From positions 33,540 to 97,539 of IMG/VR virus record IMGVR_UViG_3300009788_000095: a stretch of 64,000 nt of DNA; one strand, given 5' to 3'. This DNA comes from a virus. The notes under the pieces are model-generated. The model ran no database searches, had not been told where the DNA came from, and saw nothing but the letters and a program-made list of their open reading frames with translations. Positions within the stretch are counted from its first letter, which is position 1. Every line of letters starts with the position of its first letter. Position numbers and translations under genes: made by a program. Positions 22,699-59,400 of this stretch are shown here, one piece after another.

Positions 22699-24555
22699 AT
22701 GTCAAGTAGTAGACGTAATGCAGTAAATGAAAATATTTCAACCTATGATAGTGCTGGAGGAAAAGATTATTCGGACTTGGGTGTATGGGAAAGTTTTACT
22801 GATATTGACCTCGTATCTGCTGCACAGTCTGAAGTGCTTGAGTGTTACAAAGGTGTACATGATGATGATGTGAATATGGTAGGATCAATAAATAATTCTT
22901 CATATCATAGAATTATCCGACCGGCTCCAGGAGAAGGACATAACGGGATTCCAAAACTTGATGGAACTGTAGTAGCGTTTTCTAATACATCGAATCTTAG
23001 TCCGTTTTGGTTGGCTGAAAATTATGCACAAATACAAGATTTAGTTTTAAAGTCAACCGTCAACGAAGCAGCCGATCGTTTTGTCATTGTTATGGATGAC
23101 ATCTATGATTATCAAAAGGCAATAGGATGTTTGGTTGTAGACAGCACAAATACTGGTTCAGGATCACTACTTGTTGGAATTTTATTTTATAATAATCATT
23201 TCATAATAAATTGCTTAATTCATAATTGTGAGCGAGTAGGGTTTGGAGGTCTTAACGCTGGAGGAACAGGCCTTTGTTATAATTGTGGTTCTGATAGCAA
23301 TGATGTTGGATTCCAATCAAATGTTCAAGTCACAATTGTAACAAATTGTGTGTCTTCAAATAATACGACATTAGATTGGGATACCGCCGCTGGTGGTTCT
23401 TTTACAACAACGACGTGTACTGCAGAAAATGATACACCGGTATTTAATGATGCTGCAAATGATGATCTTAGACTTGATGAAACTGATTATATATGTAGAA
23501 AGAAGGGTACTGATTTAAGTTCCGATGGAGTATTTGCTTTCGATGATGATATAATGTTTAATACTAGAACTTTTTGGGATATTGGATTTCATGCAAATTT
23601 TGATTTATCATCTCGAATAAAAGCAACAAATGAAAATGTAAGTACTTATGATTCAGCAGGTGGAAAAGATTATAGTGATCTTTCTGTTTGGGAAGCATTT
23701 ACTGATATTGACCTCGTATCTGCTGCACAGTCTGAAGTGCTTGAATGCTATAAAGGTGCACATGATGATAATATTACTTTTAGTGGAGCCACAACTAATA
23801 TATCTTATTTTCGTATAATAAGAGCAGCAAGTAGCGAAGGACATTCAGGTGTTCCATTAAGTGATGGATCATGTGTTGAATTTCACAATACTGGTAATGT
23901 AGAATTGATTTATCTCAATGAAGAATATGCTATAGCACAAGATTTAGTTGGAAAGTTAACACAAAATACAGGTGGTCAAAATGCATGTTTTAGAATAGCT
24001 GGTCCAAGTGCAAAATCGGTTGGGTGTATTGCATATGATTCCACAAATGCTGGTGCTGGTAATTTAGATGGATTTCAGCTGTATGACCATAATACCATAA
24101 TAGTTAATTGTTTAGCTCATAACGTGAAATCAAGAGGGGCTATGTACACTATGGGTGGTGGTAATACAGGATATATATATAGTTGCACTTTTACGAATAA
24201 TGGTACAACAGGAGTATTTCAATGGACAGGTACAGCAATAGGAAAAAATATTTTAGCCAGTGAGAATGCTATAGATTTTGCAGGTACAATTACGAAAACA
24301 ACATGTAATGCGGAGGGATCAAACCCTGTATATAGAGATGCTGCAAATAATGATTTTAGATTATCCGGGGTAGATACAATTGGAAGAAATAACGGTACGG
24401 ATTTAAGTGGTGTTGCTCCTGAAAGTGAGGCAGTATTTCCATTTAATGACGATATACATGATAGAACTATGGGAGGTTCTAAGCCTGGTAAAAATAGAGT
24501 GGGGTTATGGGGTATAGGATTTTATCAATTTTATAGTAGAGCTTATGTAACATAA
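22699..24555 (+). CDS. Tailspike-like protein with internal duplication (618 aa)
   Basis: Two halves of about 300 residues start with almost the same block: 'STYDSAGGKDYSDL' then 'VWE.FTDIDLVSAAQSEVL' , 'ECYKG.HDD'. Short strands rich in Asn, Gly, Thr and Cys ('NCLIHNCERVGFGG', 'NCLAHNVKSRGAMY') with regular spacing indicate a right-handed parallel beta helix, as in polysaccharide-degrading tailspikes. Each half ends with 'FNDDI..RT..WDIGF'-like close. No catalytic residues can be named. A 47-bp stretch is identical between the halves. Probably host surface binding or depolymerisation. Confidence 0.7.
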   Translation: MSSSRRNAVNENISTYDSAGGKDYSDLGVWESFTDIDLVSAAQSEVLECYKGVHDDDVNMVGSINNSSYHRIIRPAPGEGHNGIPKLDGTVVAFSNTSNLSPFWLAENYAQIQDLVLKSTVNEAADRFVIVMDDIYDYQKAIGCLVVDSTNTGSGSLLVGILFYNNHFIINCLIHNCERVGFGGLNAGGTGLCYNCGSDSNDVGFQSNVQVTIVTNCVSSNNTTLDWDTAAGGSFTTTTCTAENDTPVFNDAANDDLRLDETDYICRKKGTDLSSDGVFAFDDDIMFNTRTFWDIGFHANFDLSSRIKATNENVSTYDSAGGKDYSDLSVWEAFTDIDLVSAAQSEVLECYKGAHDDNITFSGATTNISYFRIIRAASSEGHSGVPLSDGSCVEFHNTGNVELIYLNEEYAIAQDLVGKLTQNTGGQNACFRIAGPSAKSVGCIAYDSTNAGAGNLDGFQLYDHNTIIVNCLAHNVKSRGAMYTMGGGNTGYIYSCTFTNNGTTGVFQWTGTAIGKNILASENAIDFAGTITKTTCNAEGSNPVYRDAANNDFRLSGVDTIGRNNGTDLSGVAPESEAVFPFNDDIHDRTMGGSKPGKNRVGLWGIGFYQFYSRAYVT

Positions 24556-27231: not shown

Positions 27232-27618
27232 ATGGTATTAGTTAGTGTAGGTCTTTTTTTATTAGCGGTATCCCTGGTTTTTTCGATAGTACTTTTTTGT
27301 ATGTCCTTGTCTAAGATAAAGATTGGAGGTACTATAAATGTAAACATACCTCAGAACGGATATCATAAATTTGCAGGTGTTGATCCTGCTCAAGGTAAAG
27401 ATAGGTCTGAAATGACAATGGTCGAACATCCCGGACCAGATGGTAGTACGATTAGTTATCCTACAGCTGTTCCGGATATGAGTATACTTGATAGTGCTAA
27501 AGTTGAAACTAATATGGATTCGGAAACATTAATTATTAAAGGTAATACCAAGGGTAGCGATATTAAAAGTGCTGCAGCAGAACTTAAAAAAACTAAAAGT
27601 AGCAAGGGGTTAAAATGA
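27232..27618 (+). CDS. Membrane-anchored protein (128 aa)
   Basis: ATG at 27232. One N-terminal membrane helix (residues 1-26, VLVSVGLFLLAVSLVFSIV), then a soluble 100-residue tail containing 'KFAGVDPAQGKDRSEMTMVE' and a Lys/Ser-rich end. The ATGA overlap with the next gene suggests that it works with the actin-like protein, perhaps as a membrane anchor. That link is inferred from position only. Confidence 0.55.
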   Translation: MVLVSVGLFLLAVSLVFSIVLFCMSLSKIKIGGTINVNIPQNGYHKFAGVDPAQGKDRSEMTMVEHPGPDGSTISYPTAVPDMSILDSAKVETNMDSETLIIKGNTKGSDIKSAAAELKKTKSSKGLK

Positions 27619-28628
27619 AGGGTTTAGATATTGGGACAGCATTTATTGTTTGTATGGAGCAAGGTACTGAGGGGAACCAGGTAGTTCGTAGTGAGAGAGA
27701 TGCTTTTTTTGAAGTACCTCCAGGTGAGTTTACAAAAAATATGCTTAACCAGTCTGGGGTTAATTATGTTAAGATGGACGACAAACTATATGTTATTGGT
27801 GATAAAGCTATGGAATTTGCAGAGGTGTTTGGTAGTGAAGCGCGTAGGCCACTTGCTCGTGGCTATATCAGCCCACGAGAAAAAGAAGCGCTTCCTATTT
27901 TAAATCAGATTATTAAGGCTGTAGCCGGTAAAATAAATGAAAAAAATGAGAAATTGATATTTTCGGTACCTGCGGATACTATTGATGATTTTCAGAGACA
28001 GAATGCCTTGGTATACCACAGAGAGAGTATAGCTACACTTATAAGACATATCGGGTTTGAGCCTATTGCACTTAATGAAGGTTTAGCGGTTATTTATTCT
28101 GAACTAAAAGATTATCAATTTAGCGGCCTAAGTTTAAGCTATGGAGCCGGAATGGTAAATTTTTGTGCGTCTTGGCTATCAGTGCCTATTCCTGAGCTTA
28201 CTTTTGCAATAGGTAGGGGCGGTGACTGGGTAGATGAAAGTGCTGCCCGAGCTTTAGATGAGAGTATTGCAGTAGTTTGCGGGATGAAAGAATCTCCAAA
28301 TGAATTTAATCTTAATGATAATTATGAATCTGGTATTCCTCAGGCATTAAGTATTTATTATAAAGAACTTATCAGGTATACACTAATGACCTTAGAACGT
28401 GCATTTTATAAAATAAAAAGGCGGTTTCCTAAACCGATACCTATTGTTATAAGTGGAGGAACTACATCTCCTCCTGGATTTTTGAACCTATTTACCGAGA
28501 TGACAAGAAAATGTATCTTTTCTAATTTTAAAGGAGATAGGATAGAGATAGGGGATATAATCCAGGCCGGTAATCCATTGTACTCTGTAGCTCAAGGTTG
28601 TATGATTAAGGGTGTGATAGATGGGTAA
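27615..28628 (+). CDS. Actin-like ATPase of the ParM/MreB fold (337 aa)
   Basis: The actin/Hsp70 ATPase fold is shown by phosphate-1 'GLDIGTAF' (3-10), connector 'NEGLAVIYSE' (154-163), phosphate-2 'LSYGAGMVNF' (174-183), a 'GRGGDWVDESAA' segment (200-211) typical of filament-forming relatives, and the adenosine motif 'IVISGGTTS' (277-285). Length suits ParM/Alp-type actins rather than Hsp70. The usual partner is a DNA-binding adaptor. The small gene 28621-28908 overlaps its stop and is a candidate. Phage-encoded actins have been linked to plasmid-like segregation or replisome positioning; here it lies upstream of terminase genes. Confidence 0.8.
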   Translation: MKGLDIGTAFIVCMEQGTEGNQVVRSERDAFFEVPPGEFTKNMLNQSGVNYVKMDDKLYVIGDKAMEFAEVFGSEARRPLARGYISPREKEALPILNQIIKAVAGKINEKNEKLIFSVPADTIDDFQRQNALVYHRESIATLIRHIGFEPIALNEGLAVIYSELKDYQFSGLSLSYGAGMVNFCASWLSVPIPELTFAIGRGGDWVDESAARALDESIAVVCGMKESPNEFNLNDNYESGIPQALSIYYKELIRYTLMTLERAFYKIKRRFPKPIPIVISGGTTSPPGFLNLFTEMTRKCIFSNFKGDRIEIGDIIQAGNPLYSVAQGCMIKGVIDG

Positions 28629-28908
28629 TAACGAAAACGAAATTGGTAGTTTAGGTGAATCTCAGATAACTAAGCAGGAAGAAAAAGTTATTATACCACA
28701 AAGGTTAGTAGGTAAGGATGTTGTTAACTGCCCTATAGCAGCTGCTGCAGAGTCAGTTGTACTTGTAGATTTTTGTAAAAATATATGTTCTCATTTTGTT
28801 AAATTTATTGAAGATGAGAAATATGGTAATAGGGTTGAGTGTAAATACCCTAGATTTATAAAAGTTATTAATGTTTACGGAAAAGAAAAGTCAACTACCT
28901 TTACCTAA
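28621..28908 (+). CDS. Unknown protein paired with the actin-like gene (95 aa)
   Basis: ATG at 28621 overlaps the previous gene by eight bases. Distinct features: 'NCPIAAAAESVVLVDFCKNIC' around residues 40-60 with three Cys, and a final basic beta-like segment. Its last five codons (STTFT) read into the hairpin that begins the IscB-linked region, so the true C-terminus may have been replaced by insertion of that element. Its close linkage to the actin-like gene suggests an adaptor role. Confidence 0.55.
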   Translation: MGNNENEIGSLGESQITKQEEKVIIPQRLVGKDVVNCPIAAAAESVVLVDFCKNICSHFVKFIEDEKYGNRVECKYPRFIKVINVYGKEKSTTFT

Positions 28909-28972
28909 AGGGTAGGGGCTTGAGTAGTGATGCTCAACGCAAGGGTTGATTAGGGAGCTAAAAGGAAATTTT
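28889..28972 (+). ncRNA. Candidate omega-RNA / HEARO-type structured region
   Basis: Three nested hairpins lie between the previous gene and the IscB start: CTACCTTTA/TAAAGGGTAG (about 28894-28914), TTGAG/CTCAA (about 28920-28937) and CAAC/GTTG (about 28935-28948), ending at TTAGGGAGCTAAAAGG. IscB nucleases use an RNA encoded just upstream of the gene, with the guide at its 5' end, which would fall in the end of the preceding gene. The exact ends and guide cannot be set by eye, and the RNA may extend into the N-terminal coding region of iscB. Confidence 0.45.
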
Positions 28973-30319
28973 ATGCAGAAGTTATTAGTAAAGTTAAAGA
29001 ACACACCTACGGATGCTTCACAAGTCTGTAGCTCTGTAAATTCTGTATTAAACAAAGAGGGCACTCTTAGTGTGCAGAATAAAGTACTGGCTAATAACAA
29101 TCCCGAAGTGAATCGAGTCTCTACAAACAAGACGCTCGTTAAAAGTAAAGTGTTTGTGCTTAACAAACAAGGTTTACCATTAATGCCCTGTAGTTATGCT
29201 AAGTCTAAAAGAATGGTTAAAAAGGGAGGAGCGAAAGTAGTTAAAAGATATCCCTTTACAATCCAATTAACATTTGATTGTGAAAACAAAACCCAAGATA
29301 TTACTTTAGGTATTGATACGGGTTTTGGTAACATTGGGTTTAGTGCTGTTTCAGAAAAGGAAGAATTAATTTCAGGAACTTTAAAACTCGATGGAAGAAC
29401 TAAAGAAAGATTAGATGAAAGAAGAATGTATCGAAGATGTAGAAGAAACAAATTGTGGTACAGGAAAGCAAGATTTAGTAATCGAAAGAAAAAAGAAGGA
29501 TGGTTACCTCCTTCAACCCAAAGACGGTATGATACACATTTGAATTTAATTAACGGGTTGAAAAAGATACTGCCCATCACTTTAATTACTGTTGAAGTAG
29601 CAAAGTTTGATATCCAGAAGATAGAGAATCCAGATATCCAAGGAAAAGAATACCAGCAAGGTAATTTGTACGAATATCAAAATACAAGAAGTTACTTAAT
29701 GGCTAGAGAAAAGGGTAAGTGCCAGTTATGTAGTAAAGATTTTAAAGGTCAACCAAGTCACCTACACCACTGTAAACAACGAAATGAAGCGGGTAGTAAT
29801 AGACCTGAAAACTTAGCCTTACTTCATAAAGTATGTCACACGAAGCTACACAGAAAAGGATTAAAACTATTTAAACCAAAAGAATATAAGGCCAATATAT
29901 TTATGTCTATTATAAACAAAAGGTTCTGGAAAGATGTTTCTAATTTAAAAGTTACTTACGGTAATACAACATTTGTTGATAGAAATAATTTAGAGTTAGA
30001 AAAATCTCATGTTAACGACGCTTTTGTTATTGCTAACGGTTCTAGTCAGAGAAGGTGTAAAGCGTTTAGTATACTTCAAAAGCGTAGAGCGAATCGAGCG
30101 TTGCAGTTAAATAGAAAAGGATTTAAACTTTCTATTCGTAAACAGAGATATAACTTACAGCCGCATGACTTAGTTAAAGTTAATAACCTTATTTGCACTG
30201 TTATTGGAACTCATTGCAAAGGTACTAGAGTTATGATTAATAAATTGGATAGAAAAGTTAGTGAGTCAATTAAAAATATAGAATGGAGTTTTCATTTTGG
30301 AAGTTTTACATATAATTAA
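28973..30319 (+). CDS. iscB: IscB RNA-guided nuclease (448 aa)
   Basis: IscB proteins, the ancestors of Cas9, cut DNA guided by an omega RNA. Features in order: an unusual 58-residue N-terminal extension; PLMP domain ('VFVLNKQGLPLMPCSYAKSK', 60-79); RuvC-I 'LGIDTGFG' with Asp 115; Arg-rich bridge helix (146-172); RuvC-II 'ITVEVAKFD' with Glu 208; HNH domain with zinc pair CQLC (250-253), 'HLHHCKQRN' (His 265, 266), Asn 280 and 'KVCHTKLH'; RuvC-III 'SHVNDAFVIAN' with Asp 349; and a basic C-terminal domain. All catalytic residues are kept, so activity is expected. ATG 28973 has AAAAGGA upstream; an earlier TTG at 28946 is less likely. No transposase accompanies it. Confidence 0.88.
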   Translation: MQKLLVKLKNTPTDASQVCSSVNSVLNKEGTLSVQNKVLANNNPEVNRVSTNKTLVKSKVFVLNKQGLPLMPCSYAKSKRMVKKGGAKVVKRYPFTIQLTFDCENKTQDITLGIDTGFGNIGFSAVSEKEELISGTLKLDGRTKERLDERRMYRRCRRNKLWYRKARFSNRKKKEGWLPPSTQRRYDTHLNLINGLKKILPITLITVEVAKFDIQKIENPDIQGKEYQQGNLYEYQNTRSYLMAREKGKCQLCSKDFKGQPSHLHHCKQRNEAGSNRPENLALLHKVCHTKLHRKGLKLFKPKEYKANIFMSIINKRFWKDVSNLKVTYGNTTFVDRNNLELEKSHVNDAFVIANGSSQRRCKAFSILQKRRANRALQLNRKGFKLSIRKQRYNLQPHDLVKVNNLICTVIGTHCKGTRVMINKLDRKVSESIKNIEWSFHFGSFTYN

Positions 30320-30327
30320 AAAGGAGA

Positions 30328-30717
30328 GTGACAGTTTCTCTGTTGCTTAAAGGCGACAGTTTCCTTGTCGAAAAGGTTATGATCGATCAAAACTTAGAAA
30401 GTATCACTTCTACGGTAGCTACTTTTATTGATCATTGGTGGGCATGGCTAGTACCTGTTGTAATAATGTTTATATTAAGGAGATACATATCTAATTTATG
30501 GTATCGTATCGTAATGAAATTAAGCGAGGCTCCTTATGCGAGTATAGGTAATGTGATTCAATTTCAGGAGAACGGTACAAAATGGAAAATAGTAGGATTT
30601 ACGCGACACAGCGTTTATCTTAAGAACGCAGAGAAAGAGAAGAATGGTAACCTTGCTTTAATGCGCGTTCCTATAGACAAGTACTATAATAGTATATTTA
30701 TTTATAAGAAGGTATAG
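30328..30717 (+). CDS. Small membrane protein resembling an MscS fragment (129 aa)
   Basis: GTG at 30328 gives 129 residues; ATG at 30379 (112 residues) is also possible. One membrane helix (about 40-58, WAWLVPVVIMFILRRYI) is followed by 'LSEAPYASIGNVIQFQENGTKWKIVGFTRHSVYLKNAEKE...LMRVPIDKYYNSI'. This recalls the membrane exit and beta domain of MscS-type channels (ExPY..GD.I...G..G.V..I..R.T.L...d.....IPN). Three-transmembrane channel core is missing, so it may be an oligomeric relative with another function. Starts nine bases after iscB. Confidence 0.5.
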   Translation: MTVSLLLKGDSFLVEKVMIDQNLESITSTVATFIDHWWAWLVPVVIMFILRRYISNLWYRIVMKLSEAPYASIGNVIQFQENGTKWKIVGFTRHSVYLKNAEKEKNGNLALMRVPIDKYYNSIFIYKKV

Positions 30718-30720
30718 CTT

Positions 30721-31746
30721 ATGGGTGAGTTAAGGAATAAGTATAGAGATATGGAGACGGGGCAGTTTGATAGTGTATTAAAGCCGGAGGACGAGGCTTA
30801 CATTATTAATAATTATTTAAACATGACGGACGCAGAGATGGCTACTCAGTTAAAAGTAAACATGCAAGTAATCCAGAATTTTAGAAGTAAAAAGGGTTTA
30901 ATGAAAATGTCTTATTCTTATGAGAGCGCTTTTGGTGGGGTAATGAAAGATGTCGAGAATAACCCACAGGATAAAATGAAAGAGAAAATAGAAAAAAGTG
31001 AAGGCGGGGGTATTAAGCAGGGTAAAGGTAAGGAAAAACAAAAAAAGAAAAATGTCTCTGAGTTTTCTTACGAAGATGAAAAAAAAGCATTAAGAAAGTA
31101 CTTATCTTTAGATATCAAAAAGTTAATTCCGTCTCAGTATTTAAAAGATATAGGCACACAAGATGAATTTGTAGATAAGTTTATAATTCTTAGAAAGAGT
31201 TTTAACGATGGTGAGTGGAGGGATTTTATTGCTCATTGGATGAGATATATGAAGGAGCATCAATATGATTTTAATGTAGCTGAAGACTTTGATGATTTAT
31301 CAGGATTGATAAGGGAATTAATTATTCAATCAAATATATTTGATAGAAATAAAAATGCGCGTACTAGTGATGCGTTTTTTTCAATATATATGAAGCAGTT
31401 TAATGAGTCTGTAAGTAGACAGAAACGATACCAGGATAATTTAAAACTTTCCAGGAAATCTAGAAAAAGTGAAAAGGATTATGATAAAGAATCTTTTGTT
31501 GAAATAGTAGCTATGTTTGATAATGAGGAGACACGTAAAGTGATGGCTCAGGCAGATAAAGAGGATAATGTTGAGTTACTTAATTATATGGACAAAATAA
31601 GAAAAAAAATGAGAGAGGAGGTTCCGGAAGGTACTGAAATTGACGGACAGGAATCTTCTTTGCTAATGGGTATAAGCGAAGAAAAAGTTCAAGATATAGT
31701 AGATAAAGGTATTGATGTCTTAGAGAAGGAGAAGATTGAAAAATGA
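30721..31746 (+). CDS. Putative small terminase subunit or TerL-linked protein (341 aa)
   Basis: ATG at 30721. N-terminal 60 residues fit a helix-turn-helix ('DEAYIINNYLNMTDAEMATQ' then 'NMQVIQNFRSKKGLMKMSY'), as expected for DNA recognition by a small terminase. A Lys/Gly-rich linker and a long helical domain with heptads follow. Its stop overlaps terL (ATGA). It is longer than most TerS proteins, so it may have an added domain. The assignment is from position and HTH. Confidence 0.55.
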   Translation: MGELRNKYRDMETGQFDSVLKPEDEAYIINNYLNMTDAEMATQLKVNMQVIQNFRSKKGLMKMSYSYESAFGGVMKDVENNPQDKMKEKIEKSEGGGIKQGKGKEKQKKKNVSEFSYEDEKKALRKYLSLDIKKLIPSQYLKDIGTQDEFVDKFIILRKSFNDGEWRDFIAHWMRYMKEHQYDFNVAEDFDDLSGLIRELIIQSNIFDRNKNARTSDAFFSIYMKQFNESVSRQKRYQDNLKLSRKSRKSEKDYDKESFVEIVAMFDNEETRKVMAQADKEDNVELLNYMDKIRKKMREEVPEGTEIDGQESSLLMGISEEKVQDIVDKGIDVLEKEKIEK

Positions 31747-33581
31747 TGGGTGAGAGGAAGGGTTTATCTGAGTCTGAAATAAGGATGATTAAATATTTTC
31801 GTATACGTCCTGACAGGGCTGCGGAAATGTTATTAGGTATTGATTTTTTACCTTTTCAAAGATTACTTATTTTTATAGGTTGGTACTTTCCTTTTGTTTT
31901 AAATATACTGACTAGAGGTGCTGGTAAGACTTTTATGTTAGCTACTTTAGCATTACTCAGGGCTATGCTGTATTCTAATCAGAAGGTTGGGTTACTGGCG
32001 GCTTCCTTTAGACAATCAAAGCTACTTTTCGCTGAAATTTATAGGATATATATGAAGTCTGCGCTTTTACAAGGTATGGCGGAGAAGCCTCCTGTACGTG
32101 GTACGGATCTATGCTATTTTAATCTTAAAAATGGATCTGAAATTCAGGCATTACCTTTGGGTGATGGTGAGAAAATTAGAGGAGCGCGTTTTTACTATAT
32201 AGTACTGGATGAGTTAGCTCAAATTCCGGAAATTATCCTTAATATTGTTATAATAGGTATGACAGCAACAAAGCAGGACCCTATTAAAAGCGCAAGAATG
32301 GAGGCTTTGAAAAAGAGATTAAAAAAGGAGGGGAAAGTACCTTCTAGGAGTATACAGCTGGTTTCAGAATTAACTAAGAATTATCTAATAGGTGCTTCTA
32401 CAGCTTATTACCAATTTAATCATCTTTTTAAAATGCTAAAAAATTATATAAGGGTTATAAAGGATAAAGTCATAGCTGAAAATGGTATGGATTTATGGAA
32501 GCTGTATGCAGTATACAAGTTATCGTATAAGATGATACCTGAGGGATTCATGTCTATAGAATCGATAATGATGGCTAAGGAAAAAATGTCGAGCATGCAG
32601 TTTAACATGGAATATAATTGTTTATTTCCTGCGGAGAGTGGGGGTTTTTTTCCGGCTCAGATTGTAATGAATGCTTATACACATAATGGACAGATACATT
32701 TTGAGCTTGCAGGGGATGGTAACGCTGCATATATACTTTTTTGTGACCCGGCAAGAACTAGTGACAACTGTACTTTTTCTATTAATAAAATATTATCTAC
32801 TACAGAAGCTACCCGGTATGCGTGTGTTTGTGTAGAGGTACTTCAGGGTAGAAAGTTCCAAGAGGCTATGGAAAGGATTAGGGATATATGCCGTAGGTTT
32901 AATATTGTTAGAATCGCTATGGATCAGGGCGGTGGTGGATTAGCTATAAAAGATCTATTAAATGATCTTGATAAATGTCCGGAAGGTGAAGAATTAATTT
33001 GGGATTTTGAAGATCCGGCCTCTTACTTAGATGAGGAGATGCAGTTTAAAAAACCTGGATTACATATCTTGCATTTAGTTAATTTTAACCCTGCTTATTT
33101 GACGGAAGCTAATCATGGCTTATTATCCTCTTTAGAAAGAAAAGAATATGTATTTCCTACACCGTTAGGTACAGAGGATTTGATGAATAAAGGTGAGAAG
33201 GAAGCAGAGCAATTAGAAAATGTAGAGACAGAGATGCTTGTCGCTAAAAATGAGATGATAAACATTGTATTAACTAGAACACCAAAGGGATCTCCTCACT
33301 GGGATACACCAGCGAAAGGACAAAGAAAAGATAGATATACTGCTATTATGGGAGGCTGTAAAGAATGTAAAGATTTTATTAAGCCTGAAAATAGTGAAGA
33401 AGTAACTATAGATTTACCAACGGGAGGTTGGGCAGGTAAAGCAAGTTTGAGTACAAAGAAGGAGTTAGGTGTCGGAGCTGCTGATCTTACCCAAGGAGGA
33501 ATTAAGTTTTCAGAAGCAGCAGAGAGAAGAAAAAGATTAGTTTATGCTAAAAAATTATCAGAGATAGCTGAGTTAAATTAA
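31743..33581 (+). CDS. terL: Terminase large subunit (612 aa)
   Basis: The packaging motor: ATPase domain with Walker A 'TRGAGKT' (57-63) and Walker B 'YIVLDELAQIP' with Asp 156 and Glu 157, and a RuvC-type nuclease domain with 'ILFCDPARTS' (Asp 335) and 'RIAMDQGGGG' (Asp 394). 'LTRGAGKTFMLATLALLRAM' and the 'LAASFRQSKLLFAEI' coupling segment are typical. Length suits terminases of phages with headful or cos packaging. Located just before the portal gene, the usual order. Confidence 0.92.
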   Translation: MMGERKGLSESEIRMIKYFRIRPDRAAEMLLGIDFLPFQRLLIFIGWYFPFVLNILTRGAGKTFMLATLALLRAMLYSNQKVGLLAASFRQSKLLFAEIYRIYMKSALLQGMAEKPPVRGTDLCYFNLKNGSEIQALPLGDGEKIRGARFYYIVLDELAQIPEIILNIVIIGMTATKQDPIKSARMEALKKRLKKEGKVPSRSIQLVSELTKNYLIGASTAYYQFNHLFKMLKNYIRVIKDKVIAENGMDLWKLYAVYKLSYKMIPEGFMSIESIMMAKEKMSSMQFNMEYNCLFPAESGGFFPAQIVMNAYTHNGQIHFELAGDGNAAYILFCDPARTSDNCTFSINKILSTTEATRYACVCVEVLQGRKFQEAMERIRDICRRFNIVRIAMDQGGGGLAIKDLLNDLDKCPEGEELIWDFEDPASYLDEEMQFKKPGLHILHLVNFNPAYLTEANHGLLSSLERKEYVFPTPLGTEDLMNKGEKEAEQLENVETEMLVAKNEMINIVLTRTPKGSPHWDTPAKGQRKDRYTAIMGGCKECKDFIKPENSEEVTIDLPTGGWAGKASLSTKKELGVGAADLTQGGIKFSEAAERRKRLVYAKKLSEIAELN

Positions 33582-47479: not shown

Positions 47480-50400
47480 ATGCCTGAAGAATTAATACGT
47501 ATTGATTTAACCGAGATGTCTGAGCTTAGGGACCTAGTTCAATCTTTACGTGGTATAAAAGATGTCTTTTTAACTTTCTCAAAAGCCGTGAGTACTCCGT
47601 CCGGAGGTAAAGCTACAGTAGGGGAAATATCAATTAAAAACCTCATTAAAAAGTTTGACCAAGAGTTTAGTGCTTTCACTAAAAAGTTTGGAGAAGGTGC
47701 TAAGGAGTTTAAGGTTAAAGGTATTGATGAGGCTCGCCGTAAAATTCAAGGTTTTTCCGGATCTATCGGTAAAATGGTCCAGGCCGTAGGAGAAATAGAT
47801 AAATCTATAAAATCTATAACAGCAGCAAGTCTTAAACTTAAAAAATCACCGGAACTTAAAAAAGCTAGAGATACCCTCGAAAAAGAATTAAATAATATTT
47901 TTACAAAGTATATGTCTTTAAATGTTGATGATGTTATTAGAACAGCTGAAAAAACAGGGAAAAAATTAAATGATTATTTTAAAACTATAAATGATAGATT
48001 GGCTGAAACTGGTAAGGGGATAGAAAAACAGATTCAAGATTTACCAAAACCTAAAGCTAAGGTTACTAAAGGTAGTCAGGGAGTTGTAGGAAAGGCTAAA
48101 GAAGGTATTAAGAAAATAGAAGAAAAAGAACAGACTTATATTTCAGAGCTGGACGAAAGAGTAACAGGTACCCTAGATGTTTTACATAAGAGATCTATAG
48201 ATCAAATAGATGCTTTGATTAAAGAAGTAAGAGGCACTACTCCTGCGGGGGCTACTGCGAGATTTGCTGAGGCAGGGAGAACGGGTGTTTTAAAAACAAT
48301 CAGCGCTATTAAGAAAGGTATTCAGATATCTCAGAAAGGGTTAACTAAGTTAGTAGATAAGGCTCTAAATTTACAGAAATTAAATGAAGTGATAGGTAGG
48401 AGTACAAAACAAGTTCAAAGACTTGAAAACGAGATTAAAAATATAGAGAGAACTATACAACCTGAGGAAGCTGAGGGTATTATAGCAAGACGGGAACGAT
48501 GGATAACAGCATTAAATAACCAGATTAAAAAGTTTACGGAAGCACGCACTACAGTCTGGAATGAAATAAGTAAGAAGTTGTCAAGTGCTGCTATAGGCGA
48601 TGTCAAAGAATTTGCAAAACTGTTAGAGACAATAAATGATATACGTTTCTACAGTAGACTTACACGTAGATTAGAAAGAAGGGGGATTTCTCCAGAATCT
48701 TTAAATCGTGTTAGAACAACATTCGGGGCATTTGAGTTTGAGGGGAAATTTTATGAGAATATTAATTTAATAACAAAGGGTCTTATTGCTACTGCTAAGA
48801 CCAGTGTAGAAGAAGTAGGTTTTGCTATCAGTGAGCAGATAGGCCAGTATGGAAAAACTGTAACAAAATTACGTTTGGGCTTTACGAGAGGAAGAGCCCC
48901 TAGAGAAATGTTTAAAGTTACAGAAGCTATTTCTGGTATTACACGAGGTTTAGGCGGATTACCTGGTGCTAAGTTTGGTAAGGTATCGGCAGGGGCAAAA
49001 GAGGATGTTGTTGGAAAATTATTAAACAGTATAGCTATGCAGGTAGCTCAACGAGCAAAGTCTGAGGTTAGTGTAAGCGGAATGGCAGTGAGCGGTTTAG
49101 ATGTAGAGAAAGCGGCTGATGAAATAGCTACAGCTATTATTACTCCTTTTTCAGGTTATTTGTTAGCTAAAAGGCCGGAGATAGGAAAAGCGGTTATACC
49201 CTCAGGAAGACCAGATTTAATGAAGCTAGATGATCTTGCCAGGTATATGGTTAGAGAAGCAATGCCTACGGCTATGAGAAAGAAGTTTCAGGTTACCATA
49301 AGTAAATTTTTTGAGCAAGCAGGTGATATAGGTAGAATAAAAACTGAATTTATGAGGGTTATGGGTATGGTAGGACCTGCTGAAACAGCAGGTGCAAGTT
49401 ATGAAGGTTATATACGGGAGATGGAAGCACAGGCTAAACTATTTATCGATCAACAAGAGTATACACGAGAGTTTGCGCCGACTATACAAGCAGCTATAGA
49501 TGCTTATATATCCGGAGGAAGTCAGGTATTTGAAAGAGTTGTAAATTTATTAAAGATACGAACACAGAAGTTTTTAGTTGAAATAATAAAGCTTATTCAG
49601 AATAGGGTTCAGTTACCTATTGCTGAAGCTATGGCTAAGTATAGAAAAGAAGTACAGCAGAGATTTGTTGAGATGCTGGTAGCGGGATTTAGGAAAGAAC
49701 AGGGAAAAGTACAAAAGTTAGCATCCGGTAGGGCGATGCAGTCTGGACTAATAAGCGGCGCATCGGCTACTGAAGAACAGTGGACAGCACCTTCTGCATT
49801 TTCGATTACAACTCCAGGACAGACACCAAAGATAGAAAGAGAGCTTAGGAGTATGATATTCAACCTGATGTCTTATTCCCTTAGGGGTAAGTCGCTAAAG
49901 GGCACTAGGTTTATCTCTGATTTTGTTCCAAAGATTTTAAAAGAAACGGAAGCTGCAGAAGTAGGTATGCCTGGTAAGCAATTAATAACAACACAGGCCC
50001 TAATAGAGAGAATAAAGACATCAAAAGGGGAGGATGCAGAACAAGCAAAAAGACTTATTGAACAGGTTACGGTGTTACCGGAAGAGGAGTTTAAAAGATT
50101 TAAATTTATAGCAGAGACCCTTAAGTTATACATTACAAAAAAAGGTGAGTTTACTAAAAGAGGGCAGGAGATGATGAAGCGTGTTATGGGAAATGCTAGA
50201 AGACTAACCAGAGGTGGCGGTATTTCTACACAATATCAATCTTTCTTGAAAGTGATGTTTGAGGAGGTTTTAAATATAGAGCGAGAAAGTGTTTTTGCTC
50301 AGATGATAGATCCTGCACAGATGGAGGCATTTTTATCTCATGAAAAGGTAGCGTCTCAAAAATTAGTAGCTAATATAGTTAGTAGGATAGAAAGGTTTCC

Positions 50401-53400
50401 GAAGGGTAAAATGAAAACAGGCCTTTTGACTTATGCTGATATGAAAGAGAGACAGAGAAAAATTGCGGAAGAAAAGTTAAAGCGGGTAGGTGATATTATA
50501 AAGAAATATACGGCTATTGGATTTTCACCAACTCTCATTAGGAGACTAATTGCTACGACTGAAAAAGAACAGGAAGTTTTTGATAGAGAAGTTGTGGCGT
50601 TAGAGAATGTAATTAAAAGAGGCGGTGCTGTAGCGTATGAGTATTTTCCTACGCAGCAGATTGTAGAAAAACATAGGCAGGAAGCATTAGCTATCAGGGG
50701 GCTTGAAGAGGCTGAGAATGTAAGTAATAAAAGACTACAGAGAGCTTTTCAGAAAATCAGTAAAGTATTTCAGGAAGGTGCAGGTTTTAAAGAGATAAGA
50801 CAAATGATATCAGATGTTTATAAAAGAGGAGATAGAGAAACTGTATCTCGCTACGATAAGGCTATAACCGCACTATCCTCTATACATAAAGAAAACATAC
50901 AGAATGTTGGTAAAATACTTATTCCTGCAATAGTGCAGTTTTTTGTAGGCGATATGGAGAACTTGGAGCAAGTATTAAGAACATTAGCTTTAATATCGGG
51001 AGGAGCTGCTACCGCAGAAAGGTACGGGTATATAAGGTCTTTAGTTGGTGAATTTTTAGGAATTTCACGAAAAGAGTACGGGCGTTTAGATAAATCTTTA
51101 AAATCAGGGAATAAGCAGGCAGTAAAGGCAGTTCGGGATAGATTAGTGACTTTATTTACTCCGAAGATAATGGATCTTGGAAAAAGTTTGGAGGATTTTT
51201 ATATACAGATGAGTGCAGACTTAGCTAATCTTGTTACTACAAACTTAGTTAGTTGGTTTACTGCTCAGAAAGAAGGGTTGGGTAAAACATTCGGTGCAAT
51301 AGCGATGCGTGTAAGACAGCTAGGCAGGATGCGTGTTAAAGGTGAAACTATAGGTATGATAGAGCCGTCAGGATTCTTACCAGGAACTACCGGAGAAATA
51401 CCTATTGAAACTATAAGACAAGAACAAAGATTATTAGGAGCAAGAGGAAGAAAACCGACAGGGGAGGTACCTGTTTCTTATGCACCGGCGGTTAAAGGGC
51501 TAGATGATATTCTTAGGGAGTTAACTGAAGAATTTAAACTAACTAAAGAGGCTGTGTCAGTACTTCGTGCCTTTATGGAAACTAAATTTTCAGGAAGAGA
51601 GGTTGTGGCTATACGTGGTAGAGCAGGAGTAACTACTCCAGGAAGAGGCGGGCCTTCAGCTTTTGGTGCTTTTGCAGGTAAAGATATTGAATATGGTTTA
51701 CAAAATATAGTAAAAGATTACATGAAACGGCTAGGCTATACTGTTGAGGGTAAAGCAGCAACAACTGGAACTAAAATACATGATATCTTAGAAGGTGTTT
51801 TTTTAGAGTACTCAAAGCGTATCGGAACTCAGATGGTAACTGAACAACCAGTAACAACTGTAGGTACTAGAGAAGGCGCTGCTGCTAAAACATCATTATT
51901 GGGTTTTGGTAGAATTGATATACTTGGTATATTTAAAGGTTACGGTGAGATATTTAAGGCATTAGGGGCTATGCCTGCTTTAGTAGATATTAAGACAGTA
52001 ACTCGTCTTGAGGCTTTTGATGCAGAGGGATTTAAGACTCAGATTAGTGCGTATGTAGAAATGTTTAAAGTTTTGGTAAAGATGAATCCTGATAAATATC
52101 CTGAACTACAAGATGCTTTAAAACTAATGGGCGGTAGGGAAGTTACTGCTGTACGAAACTCCATTGTAAATATTCAAAGTATTGTTAAGGATATTACGCA
52201 GTTACAAGCTGCGGCTCTTGTTATAGATAGGGAGGCATTTGAGGCAGCTATTAAAAAAGCCGGTTTTAAGAGTATTGATCAACTAAGGTTTTTGGTATTA
52301 GCCGGTAAAATAACTAACGAGCAGGTGAAACGACTTATAACGATTGTTAATCAGGTAGGTAAGGTTGAGGTTTTTGGTTTAAAAGATTTGCCTGATATTG
52401 AGAGATTGATGATTCCTGCTTATAGAGCAATAGTGGCTTTTGAACAAGTTAATAAAGTGTTAGGTAATATTTCCGGAGAAATAACAAAGAGGTTTGTAGA
52501 ATATAAAGGTAGACGTGTAGAGCATATAGACGAGGCTCTTCTTGCTAAAAATTTAGGGGAGCTAGGGTTGCCGTTTATTAAAGATGCGGAAAAGCTAAAA
52601 AGGGTCGCAAAAGAACAAAAGGTATCTATGGGAGAAGTAAAGGATGCTATAAAAAGAGCAACTGTAACGGTAACTAGCCAAGTTCCGGAACGTGAATTTA
52701 AGGATTTTTATGCACAGTTAAAAGAGAGGTTACTGACACAATTAAAAACTTTAACTGGTTTTTCTAATATAAAACAGTATTTAGGTGAATATATCGGTAG
52801 GCAGCAGATAGGTGGTAGGGCAGGTGTTGCTGCATTGCCAGCACCAGGAAGGGTAGGGGTAGAAAAAGAGAGAGTGCAAGTATCAGCTGAAACAGCAAAA
52901 ATGACGGGTGAAGAAGCAAAGGCTTACGGAAACATTATAGGAAGTGTTGAAACTTTAACCGGTAAGTTAAAAGAAAAGACCGGCGCTCTTGAAGCAGAGA
53001 TGGCTATTTTAAAGGAAGAAGCTACTATTTTTGTTTCAATTACACAGACAGCGGAAAGTTTGGTTAAGTACCTGAGAGGTACAGAGAAATTATCTTCTGT
53101 AATTAAATCAGCTTCACAGGTTCTTAGCTTGTTTGGACTGAGTGAGAAAGAGGTAGGAAAAGTAGTTAAAAACTTAGGAAAAACTGTCGGAAAGATGGAA
53201 GAGTTAAAATCAGCAACATCTAAGGTAAAAGATACTGTGGAAGGTACAGCTCAGGGATTTGATAGAGTAAATAAAAGTGCAACTGATTCGTCCAAAACTA
53301 TAGATGATATGCTGGGCGGTATGTTTAATTTAGGTAGCGGGACTGCGAGTGTTGAAGAAAAGATTAAGTCAATGACAAGTGAAGCAGGCAGGTACGCTAC

Positions 53401-56400
53401 TATGATGAACAGTGCTGTTACTTTTTCTAAAAATGAATCTGCAAATAGAGAGCAGATTAAAGCTAAGCTTAGTGATGCTTTATCACATATTGAAAAATAC
53501 GAACAGTTAGCGAATAGGCTTTCAGAACATTCTAAAAATAATGTAGATGCAGCTAAAGCGGAATTTACAGCACGTCAGAGAATTGCACAGATATACGAGC
53601 GTGCTTCTGAGTTTGGATTAAGGACGGAATCTGAACTAGCAGAGAAGATAGATCTTAGAAATAAAAAACAACGAGATTTATCAAGACAAGCTAATGAGTA
53701 CTTTACACAGTTAGGTAGGATCAGAACTGCATCTGCAGACGCTAACATACCCCTACATGAAAGACTTGAGAGTCTTAGAGAGGCTATACGTGCCTTAAAT
53801 CAGTATGCAGACGTAGTTAAATCGCTTTCTCAGGTTGAGGGAGAGGGCTTAGCAACAGCATCTAGACGACAACAGTTTGCAATGCGTAGATCTCAGATAG
53901 GGGAAGCTTTAGGGGGATTACAAGCAGAGTTTAAGAGAGGGGCTGATCCTGCAGGGGAATTAACGAGACATATAGGGAAGCAGATATCGCAGTTTAATGA
54001 AGAAATGTTATTATCTGGAAGAGCTTATGCTCAATTAACTAAAGAATCAGGAGGGGCTATAAGAGAAAACTTAAATGTGATTCGTAAAGTAACTGATCAA
54101 CAAGGTAAGCAGCTACTTATGGTTGAAGGTATAGCAACAGCTCAGGGTAAAGTAACTACACAGGTAAAAGAGACAGCATCTGTGTATGCTGGAACTGTAG
54201 CTAATCAGATGAAAAATATTATGGCTAGACTGGCGAAGTGGGGGAGTGGTGCTTTTTTATATTTTGGTGTTATGCGTGGTGCTAGGGATGCTGTTCGTGC
54301 AATAACAGAAATGGAAAGCGCTATTACTTCGTTAAGGCAAGTTATGAATCAGTCTAATACTGATTTTATGGCTATGTCAGAGCAAGCTTACGCTCTAGCT
54401 GTGTCCTACGCAACACCTATTAAAGATTTAATGAAAACTATGTTAGAGTTTGCGCGGCAGGGCCTTAACCAGGAAGAGGTAATAGAGGCTTCACGGGTAG
54501 CTACTCTAGCAGCTAATGTAACAGTCTTAAATGCAACGCTGGCTATGGACACACTTACAGCTGCTACACGTCAGTATAATATATCTGCAATGGATTCTAT
54601 AAAAGTTCTTGATGCCTGGAATTTAGTAGCTAATAGGAATGCTGTTACTGCAAAGGATTTGGGTGGGGCGATGAAACAGGCAGGTAGTATAGCTAAATTA
54701 ATGGGGCTTGGTTTTGAGGAACTCACAGGTATCATGGCTGCATTACAGGAGACTACCAGAAGAGGTGGACCTACAATCGGACGTGCAATTAGGTTTATGT
54801 TAGTTCATTTAAGAACAGATGAAACAGAGAAAGCTTTAACTGATTTAGGTATTTCTATAAGAAAGACAGCCGGAGAATATAGAACAGCTTCATCTGTATT
54901 TAAGGAAGTAGCTGAGAGGTGGAGAGAATTAACAAGTGCTCAAAAGTACCAAGTTTCTTATGCTATAGGGCACGTAAGGTTTGGTGCATTTGTAGCTGCA
55001 ATGTTTGAGAATTGGGCTAAGGTTACTAAAGCTACAACAGAAGCTACTTACGCTCATGGATCTGCAATGGCAGAAAATGAAATAGCTATGCAGGCGTTTA
55101 AGAAACAAGTAACAGGTTTACGTAATGAATGGGAGGCTTTTATTTATTCTTTTGGTAGAACAGGTATCTTAGGTATACTACGTGGATTTCTTTCAATAGG
55201 TAAGGGTATCTTAGGTGTATTTGATAAACTGCCAGGGGTTATAAAGACTACAATTTCTGTCTTGGGTACATCTGCTGTTTTATTTATGGGACTTAGTCGA
55301 TTTTTACGATGGTATTTTAGTATTGATTTATCAGATGTTATTCGCAGGTGGGGATTAAGAGCGGCAGGAAAAGAGGCGGCAAAAACTATAGGTTTTTTAA
55401 AGAATGTTTCTTCAGTAGCTATTGGTAAAAATATATCTGAGACAGAAACACTAGCAATGGCACAAAACACAGTAACAGGATCTGTGCAGGGAACAAATGT
55501 TTTATATACTACGAGTCTTGGCCTCCTTAACTCTATGACTTTAGCTACAAGGGAGTTAGCGGTTGCTCAGGGTTTAGTTACTGGGGGCACGACAAAAGTA
55601 GCTATGCAGACGTTACCCTCTACCCTTGTGATGCAAAGAGGGAGACTTGCACCTACTTCAGCAAGAACGATAAAGGAGAGCGTAGCAGTAGCGGGTACGG
55701 GTGCAGCAGTCAAAAGATCATTATTTCAGAAGAGTACTTTTAGAGAAACATTTCGTGCAGCTAGGGTATCCGGGAAAGCTACAGGAAATAGATGGGGTAA
55801 TGCTTTTATGGCTGCAACCTGGTTAAGGGTTAAGGGTTTAGGTAAGGGATCTTTTTGGAAGGGTTTAGGTTTAGCTTTAACTAAGGTAGGAGGTACTTTA
55901 GCAGGATTTTTAACTAGTCCTCTTGGGATTGTAGCGGCAGCTATAGCAGGTACTACAGCAGCCCTATGGGGATTTAGGAAAGTAACAGATAACACATCTA
56001 AAATTATAATTGAAAAAAACAAAAAGTTAATTAACGAACTTCAGCAGTCTTTAAATGAGGCTAAAATAGCTATTGTTTCTTATACAACGGCTTTAGAGAA
56101 TATCGCTACGGGTGCTAGGGTTGATTTAAGTGCTATTGAAAGGGAGAAGAAATTAAGATCAGATATAGCTTCCCGGTTTCCTGGGTTAGTGAAAGGTTAT
56201 ACAGATTACGGGGATGCTATTCTTGAGTCTTCAAACAGGGTTGGTGTACTTAAAAAAAGAATGGAAGAGTTAGCCACAGTAAAAGCTGTAGAACTAATAG
56301 GTATACAGTTAGAGGAAGTTAGTGTTATATTAAGAGATCTATCAGACCCGAGAGTAGGCAGAAATATTTTAACTTATTTACCGGCCAGTCTGGGTTTGTT

Positions 56401-59400
56401 GGATAGTACTATAGACAAACTAAGAAAAAATATTAAAGAATATAATAATCTACGAGAAGCTTACAATGAGGCATTTAAAAGAGGTTATGATGTTACTACT
56501 ATTAGAAAAAATATGGGTGAGATTGCTGAGGAGATTAGAGAGGGAACCAAGGTAGTAAATACTTCTTTTATTCAGGCAGAAAATAGAATGAGAAGTATAG
56601 CAAAGATGGGCGGAACTGCTGCAGTTGAGGCAATTGGGAGGGCATTACAAACAAACTCATCAAATCTGGAAATTTATATAACTAGTATAGTTCAAAGTTT
56701 AGGTACGGAAGATGTTTTAAAAGGATTCAGAGCATTTTTTGTTAAAACATTTGGCCCGGACTTAGGTACGATTATAAAAGATTCTGTTAGGAATATACCT
56801 TTACCAGCTTTAAAAGAGTCGGCGGAGGCTATATCAAAAGCTATTTCCGATTCTTTATTAACAAATATAGACGTTAAGGGGTCTACCCGAAAGGCAGTTA
56901 GAAAAATAGTTAAAGATTTAGAAGATGCGATTAGGGGTGAAGATTATCAGGAAGCTTTGTTATCGGCTATGGAAGGTATATATGAAATCAGGGGAAAACT
57001 AAGCGATAATGCGGTACAGAAATTAACTAGTAAGATGGGCGAGTTTGCTATAGTTTTCGCAAAAAAGATAGAAGGCGATGCGAAAGAACATAGAAAAATG
57101 TTTATTAAGACTACCGAGGGGTATGCTATAATAGATGAAGAAGCTATAGCAAACATATTTGGAGGTAAAGATATAGATTTAGAGCTTATTAAAAAGAAAA
57201 AAGAATTTATAATGAAATACAAAAAGTCTGGCGATGTGATTGATATGATTGAAGAAATGCAGCGAGAGAAAGGTAAGTGGGAAGGAGATACATACGTTAT
57301 TAAAGTAGGTATTAAACCAGATGAAGTATACTTTAATAAACTTAAAGTGGCGATGGACGCTGTTAAGGGTTATTCTGCATACCTTAAAGTGATGGATCAG
57401 TATTTAACTGGAATTAGTGCAACAGAAAAAAACAGAGTAAGTATGATGAAGGATGCTTATTCTATAGGTACGAAGTCAGCAAAAGAATACGCTAATATAC
57501 TTGATGCTTTGGAAATTAAAATCAAAAAGAACTTAAGTAGGTTTGGTGGTTTAATGGGTGCTGGTCCGGAATTTAAAAGGGAGATGCTTGATATTACAAG
57601 ATTAAGAGCAGAAGCAGAATTAACTGTTAATAAGTATAATCAGTGGCGTTCCTTAAAGAATAGAATGTTAGCAGATCCTGCAGCATTTCAAAAGGATACA
57701 CACGCAGTAAGAACCTTTAAGAATTTAATAGGAGATATCCAGGCTAGTTATAAAACATTACCGAGAGAAGCGCAGGAAATGTACAGGGGTGTTTTTAAAG
57801 ATATAGATAAAGTTTTAATCGATGAAGACCAGGTAGAGAAGAATAAAGAAAAGATTTTAGGTGCAATTAGGGATATAGCTGATAAGGCTAAATATAAAGG
57901 TGTATTAACTTTTGAAACAATTGATACACGTGTTTTTGATAAAGCCATAGATGAAATATATAAAAAGTTTAGGGACACTTCAGCCCTTACATCAAAAGAC
58001 GTAGAAAGTATAATAAATAAAATCCCTATAGATACAGGGGCTGTAATTAATGCTGAAATAGATAATATGAGAAAAAAAATAAATACGATGAAGAAAGAGC
58101 AGTTTCCCGGGCTATTCGGTACTATTTCAGAAAGTGACATAAATTATTTTAAACAGCTAAATACGCTATATGGAGAATTAGAGAAAAAAAGAAGAACTGC
58201 TAAGGTTTTAGGTAAGGCTTTACCATTTATTCCTAAAAAAACTGATTTAGATGCAGTTAGTAAATCTCTAGATAGTTTAATAAAAGAACATGGAGCAAGA
58301 CTTGCATCAGGAGTTTCAGTAGATATTAGTAAAAGTGTTTTACCGCGTTTGAAAAAAGAGTTAGAAGCAGTGCAACTGATGAAAATGGAATTTAAATTAG
58401 ATGAAGCACAGGCCGCTAAGCAGGCAGTAGGTGCGGCTGAATTATTTAAATCCGCTTTTACAAGAGAATTACATGAGAGGGTAGGAGAAGAAGCAGGAGG
58501 AAAACTTGCTTTAGGTACAGTAAAGGGGCTTCAGCGTGGTTTAACGGTTTTAGGAGGTACTAATTTTTATAGACTATTAGCAGGTACAATGAAGATAGAT
58601 AAAGTAGCTAATCAGTTAATAAGATCAGGTCAAAAAGCATTTGAGAAAGCTAGTAGAGGACGAGGTGGTACTGATACGATGACTGCTATACTAGGTTTAA
58701 CTCAACAGAATATAGGCGAAGCATTAAGGACAGCTAATTTAGGAGGAGTAGCTATAAACGCAGCTAGTCAGATATGGGATGAATATTTAAGCAGGGCCAG
58801 GGACGGAAGTACAGAGAGTATTGCAGTTTTTACAGAAACAATAAAAGCTTTTTCTAAGGCCGCAGGGAATACAACGGGAGAAATGTTAGACAACATAACA
58901 AAACAAATGGAAGAGGGCATGAGGCCTGATGTAGCTTTTATGGATATGGTTAAAAGCCTTGGTTTAGCCCCTGAGGATTTAAGACTTATACAACAACAAT
59001 CAACAAAAATGCTTTCGACTATTACAGCTATACAGAAGGGTATGGGAGATGCAGCGAGTGACTACTCTAAGTCTTTAACAGAGTCAGGTAAAAAGTCTAG
59101 ACTGGAAATAGTTAGTTTGTTAAGTGAGTCTTTAAATATAGCTAAATATTATGAAAAAAGAAGAGACGAGGCTATAAAGGACATGAAGGAGTATGTAACT
59201 ACTCTAGTAAGCTATAGTAAAGAATTGACTTCTGGAGTAGGTGTGTCTTTTGCTGAATTTTCAGAAAAGATGGGTGGGCATCTTGGTGGTATACGTAAGA
59301 TGTTAAATATATTTTCAAAATCTACTGAAGCAGAAGTAAGAGGGTGGGCTAAAGCTTTAAAGGAGATTTTAGGTAGAAAGTTTGTAGAGGCTTTTACAGG

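Follow-up and report, generated by a model that had tools for sequence, protein, structure and literature searches.

How does an IscB nuclease come to stand among phage packaging genes with no transposase beside it, and what is the N-terminal extension that its product seems to carry? These questions are raised by the window analyzed here, the whole stretch of 64 kb that forms the last part of a 97.5-kb virus record (IMGVR_UViG_3300009788_000095). A second IMG/VR contig of 180 kb differs from it by one base in 17.8 kb across the iscB region. We searched both phage records, either of which may be a fragment, and gathered IscB relatives from IMG/VR and GTDB.

Identity and genomic setting of the IscB gene

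The gene at 28973–30319 (plus strand, as are all features below) encodes 448 amino acids plus a stop and opens at an ATG internal to the ωRNA. Profile and structure comparisons identify its product as an IscB. It matched the NCBIfam equivalog NF040563 with 292.4 bits against a cut-off of 175, in an alignment running from residue 60, as well as the Pfam families RRXRR (203.8 bits) and HNH (34 bits), and its best PDB sequence matches were IscB/IsrB. A Foldseek search with the predicted fold returned IscB or IsrB entries as the ten best matches (top 8csz, E 5.9e-26), with TM-scores of about 0.5 for a model that includes the low-confidence extension. The core (29150–30316) comprises PLMP, the RRXRR/bridge region, a split RuvC, HNH and a C-terminal domain. 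Specifically, RuvC-I D115 is encoded at 29315, RuvC-II E208 at 29594, H266 of the HNH region (residues 250–295) at 29768 and RuvC-III D349 at 30017; these four residues are invariant across 26 relatives, and C250/C253 and C288/H289 are present in the HNH region. A sequence-only reading of this DNA had described a catalytically intact IscB on the strength of PLMP, D115, E208 and D349 of a split RuvC, a bridge helix and a complete HNH. Its residues were correct, with H266 to be added, and the profile search that it had named beforehand as able to overturn it found IscB similarity at 292.4 bits. An IscB as such is ordinary for phages, and a PHROG family for it exists.

On the 5′ side, iscB follows a 95-aa ORF (28621–28908), at whose 3′ end the insertion lies, and before it a Volactin-family actin-like gene (27615–28628; PF25216, 237 bits). 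On the 3′ side stand a 129-aa ORF, a presumed small terminase, the large terminase (31743–33581; phrog_2, E 1.7e-25) and the portal gene. The large terminase and portal calls are supported; the putative small terminase has no family match and is labeled from position only. The earlier placement between an actin-linked gene and the small terminase thus holds as regards the phage head and packaging block, but the 95-aa ORF intervenes before Volactin and the small terminase is positional only. Two other observations concern the window. A single open frame of at least 5507 aa occupies 47480–64000 and is cut off by the end of the window, where the record stops as well; a frame of this length points to a giant tail or structural protein. 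At 22699–24555, a 618-aa protein contains an internal repeat (22725–22866 versus 23628–23769, 82% identical in DNA).

No Y1 transposase (PF01797) was found in either phage record, as the sequence-only reading had it, and the element thus lacks the Y1 TnpA in cis that defines IS200/IS605. This is ordinary, because TnpA linkage is rare among HEARO/IscB nucleases (PMC9755519). No dedicated promoter stands out.

The ωRNA scaffold overlaps the start of the iscB frame

A HEARO match (RF02033) covering the full model length (1–211) lies at 28890–29118, with 116.7 bits against a gathering threshold of 83 (E 9e-25), and is the sole HEARO in the record. Its fold has a z-score of −2.74, and compensatory changes were observed at 43 of 62 consensus pairs among 13 relatives. 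An ωRNA at the 5′ side of a free-standing IscB had been expected, and it is there at full length. The match overlaps the start of the ORF, however, such that the "58-residue extension" results from reading the scaffold in frame. The extension had rightly been flagged as unusual while its nature went unrecognized, and the gene start assigned to 28889 has to be moved to the ATG at 28973, position 28889/28890 being the left edge of the ωRNA. The in-frame stretch overlapping the ωRNA spans 28973–29149 (59 codons). A Shine-Dalgarno-like AAAAGGA lies inside the ωRNA at 28960–28966, and its duplex energy before the ATG at 28973 is −6.1 kcal/mol, compared to −0.4 kcal/mol before the core start, where the window phage has a GTG (29150).

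The frame is open through the ωRNA across a clade

Counting that of the window, 14 sequences keep the iscB frame open through the ωRNA, from an invariant ATGCAG situated just past the first ωRNA helices to the core. A tree of the core placed these 14 and two others in one clade with support of 96/98; 14 of its 16 members have the open frame, which no IscB elsewhere in the tree shares, so that two losses suffice. L032, one of the two exceptions, has AGGAGG and an ATG directly before the core instead. The window IscB itself has the features of the clade, with ATGCAG inside the ωRNA and the frame open to the core.

Across 13 sequences, the extension contains no stop in 648 codons, compared to 12.6 ± 2.4 in column shuffles, of which none in 5000 reached zero (minimum 5). 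Each codon column position was permuted, retaining base composition per site, and the tree was not modeled. The other two frames of the extension contain 2–8 stops each, and standard IscB ωRNAs with a located core have 1–6 in the corresponding frame. Lengths downstream of the ATG were a multiple of three in 12 of 13 sequences, and those upstream were scattered (7/3/3). In four members (L011, L013, L039 and L014), the core begins at neither an ATG nor a GTG, and an SD-like site precedes the internal ATG in most members, being weak in L025, L027 and L029. We had also considered that the extension might be a mere annotation artefact, a candidate dropped on the openness of the frame across the clade. 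The conservation points to a scaffold that lies within the coding sequence and is probably translated with it, the peptide having no evident role.

The extension evolves like an RNA

Differences are spread almost evenly over the three codon positions of the extension (0.39/0.44/0.38), unlike the coding-type pattern of the core (0.31/0.23/0.52), which suggests that the IscB core is under purifying selection across the clade. AlphaFold2 assigned a pLDDT of about 30 to residues 1–54 and about 90 to much of the core, and the extension is accordingly predicted to be unstructured. The simplest account of these patterns would be selection for the RNA fold and an open frame, not for amino acids. Copies of the same family without an ORF, found in a Desulfamplus MAG, agree weakly with this account: one lineage of four carries an in-frame TAA in a hairpin loop, which counts as one event. 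Two recent ORF-less copies, little changed from the full copy, are still open in frame, so openness alone can be inherited.

Element borders and the predicted guide

The Desulfamplus MAG contains one IscB copy and six ORF-less copies, which occupy seven sites, each with a left flank of its own, and which all start with GTCAACTACC at HEARO position 1. The window element opens with the same ten bases (GTCAACTACC) at 28890, and the seven copies support this left boundary and the guide register that it would set. In that MAG we observed 13 HEARO copies altogether (L173, L176, L178–L180 and L194–L200), at least six of them ORF-less; the ORF-less derivatives retain the ωRNA and the opening codons of the IscB core, joined to a right end that they have in common.

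By analogy with known IscB biology, the 16 nt immediately 5′ of HEARO position 1, TTTACGGAAAAGAAAA (28874–28889), which form the left flank at the 3′ end of the upstream ORF, are predicted to act as the guide. This sequence was found once per record in the two phage records, allowing up to two mismatches, and there abuts GTCAAC, not a TAM-like sequence. The right end of the element would lie within 30320–30381, where three candidates fit equally: a TAM-like AAAGG right after the stop (30320), a TAM-like GTGACA at 30328, and a site past the terminator-like hairpin CTGTTGCTTAAAGGCGACAG followed by TTTCC (30340–30359). The hairpin may belong to the element as its 3′ hairpin. GTGACA matches the OgeuIscB TAM, NWRRNA.

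Empty sites of phage IscBs

No empty allele of the window locus was found in IMG/VR or INPHARED. Searches of IMG/VR with TerL, Volactin, the 95-aa ORF, a TerL profile and a degenerate target pattern returned only the near-identical contig, a contig with 65% TerL identity that begins inside TerL (L067), and the distant L096. The latter is the nearest relative with the flank; its homologue of the 95-aa ORF ends (KIHPIAG*) at the matching place and no IscB follows, but it is too distant to serve as an empty allele. In addition, 33 matches to the degenerate pattern in IMG/VR look unrelated to the locus, the Volactin loci of huge phages (L018 and L019) are not syntenic with it, and flank searches for the relatives L024 and L014 found no empty sites.

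Other phage IscBs do have them. IscBs occupy three sites in Staphylococcus herelleviruses. In phiSA_BS1, whose flanks are 99.7–99.8% identical, nothing is inserted at the JDF86 site, which is cleanly empty; it is empty in Golestan101-M as well, while the Golestan101-M and VL10 sites are without IscB in PSU4 and LSA2308. These clean empty sites in relatives imply that phage IscBs are mobile as whole units with no transposase in cis, and cutting may be what drives the movement. For the window IscB, a homing cassette is plausible. The homing that the sequence-only reading had proposed gains indirect support from the copies of a close relative at multiple sites, the single occurrence of the guide per record, next to GTCAAC and not a TAM-like sequence, and the empty sites of other phage IscBs, and stands short of an empty allele of this locus in IMG/VR or INPHARED. 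The anti-competitor use proposed alongside it is unsupported, no rival with a matching target having been found in IMG/VR.

In the silviaviruses VL10 and CIFT_MFB_MRSA13 (L165 and L164), synonymous changes alter the beginning of the downstream gene at the IscB right junction; the empty site reads ACAAATAGTAAAAA and the sequence after the insert in VL10 reads ACAAATTCGAAGAA, as if the cassette brought a new gene start to which its guide no longer pairs. Three relatives of the window IscB were placed by eye from translations: that of L024 at the 3′ end of a gene resembling a small terminase and immediately ahead of the large terminase, that of L010 ahead of a capsid-like gene, and that of L025 beside a TnpB-like ORF. 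A Clostridioides phage (L020, CP069348.1) carries a standard HEARO-IscB (124 bits), very near to those of L046 and L047 from IMG/VR.

Proposed mechanism and alternatives

The reading we regard as likely is that of a transposase-less mobile IscB–ωRNA (OMEGA) cassette at the 3′ end of a small packaging-operon gene, with its scaffold inside the iscB frame, translated from the internal AUG and spreading by homing. The ribosome would most likely begin at the AUG at 28973 in the scaffold and read about 59 ωRNA codons before the nuclease. One transcript would be either translated, or folded and taken up by IscB as guide RNA. With the flanking 16 nt as guide, the ribonucleoprotein would cleave the uninterrupted allele of a related phage or of one infecting the same cell, and the cassette would spread when the break is repaired from the occupied copy. 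The empty allele would join AATGTTTACGGAAAAGAAAA to sequence within 30320–30381. IscB bound to its own scaffold would cover the Shine-Dalgarno and AUG and could limit its own synthesis. More tentatively, and with slightly less than even confidence, we propose that in this IscB lineage a ribosome-binding site and start codon inside the scaffold make translation and guide assembly mutually exclusive, the nuclease repressing itself via its guide, as a switch for a homing phage element.

Two alternatives concern the extension. If the protein were an ordinary IscB starting at the GTG at 29150, with the ωRNA no more than a 5′ leader and its open frame due to chance, the beginning of all profile matches at residue 60 would be expected, as would the GTG itself and the position of the ωRNA, which in standard IscBs is wholly upstream. 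We consider this quite unlikely given the absence of stops where 12.6 are expected, the frame-keeping length changes confined to the region downstream of the ATG, the lack of an SD before 29150 (−0.4 kcal/mol) and the four members with no ATG or GTG at the core start. The recurrence of the peptide motifs PTDASQV, LNKEETLS and NNPEVN across the clade could instead reflect a protein domain with a function of its own, such as RNA or DNA binding, which overlaps the RNA by chance. These motifs sit on conserved ωRNA segments, however, and neither the flat codon-position rates, unlike those of the core, nor the pLDDT of about 30 over residues 1–54 fits a domain, making it very unlikely.

The other two concern the role of the element. 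Purifying selection on the core and the absent transposase would also suit a domesticated phage weapon, a ribonucleoprotein kept against rival phages or the host and not for homing. This is unlikely, as the guide has the left-flank form seen in each mobile copy examined, neither phage record contains another target with up to two mismatches, and no rival with a matching target emerged, the 33 IMG/VR pattern matches looking unrelated. An inert IS200/605 remnant on its way out is highly improbable: the missing TnpA and the unrecognizable right end would agree with decay, but the catalytic residues are all intact, the ωRNA is full length, the core shows coding-type evolution across the clade and the second contig is identical save one base in 17.8 kb.

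Significance and comparison with known systems

The unusual part of this system is the ωRNA nested in the ORF across a clade. If the proposed reading is true, one RNA segment is under two unrelated constraints, a covarying guide fold and an open, apparently peptide-neutral frame, and the nesting suggests how transposase-less RNA-guided nucleases may balance guide against enzyme. IscB curation can swap upstream starts for downstream ones at N-terminal insertions of at least 10 aa (PMC13180657); this could hide nesting and misplace the ORF start and the ωRNA end in candidate editors. With the phage relatives that have empty sites, RNA-guided homing could be put to a direct test in laboratory phages. 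In the searchable literature, we found no report of phage IscB homing or of an ωRNA inside an IscB ORF, the latter being weak evidence of novelty.

The window IscB shares with OgeuIscB (7xht), OrufIscB (9nvu) and TbaIscB (9k30) the PLMP, the split RuvC with HNH, the RRXRR, a 5′ HEARO-type ωRNA and a left-flank guide. Unlike in these systems, its ωRNA overlaps the 5′ part of an ORF kept open instead of lying upstream, and the element is phage-borne with no TnpA. The nearest precedent for one RNA as both message and guide is TnpB, a nuclease that obtains ωRNA by processing its own mRNA (PMC10278001): there, too, the protein mRNA and the guide RNA are one transcript, and a cis-regulatory effect is proposed. 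However, the TnpB ωRNA is at the 3′ side, whereas that of the window IscB lies 5′ and contains the start codon; the RNAs are unrelated and the nucleases belong to different lineages. The IscBs of the Staphylococcus herelleviruses JDF86, Golestan101-M, VL10 and CIFT_MFB_MRSA13 are, like that of the window, transposase-less and located at phage gene borders; their close relatives have clean empty sites. They belong to a distant IscB branch and their RNA lies upstream, not nested. Finally, free-standing phage HNH homing endonucleases resemble the window element in sitting between essential genes and in likely spreading by cutting empty alleles, whereas the window IscB would find its target through an RNA copied from the flank and not through protein–DNA recognition.
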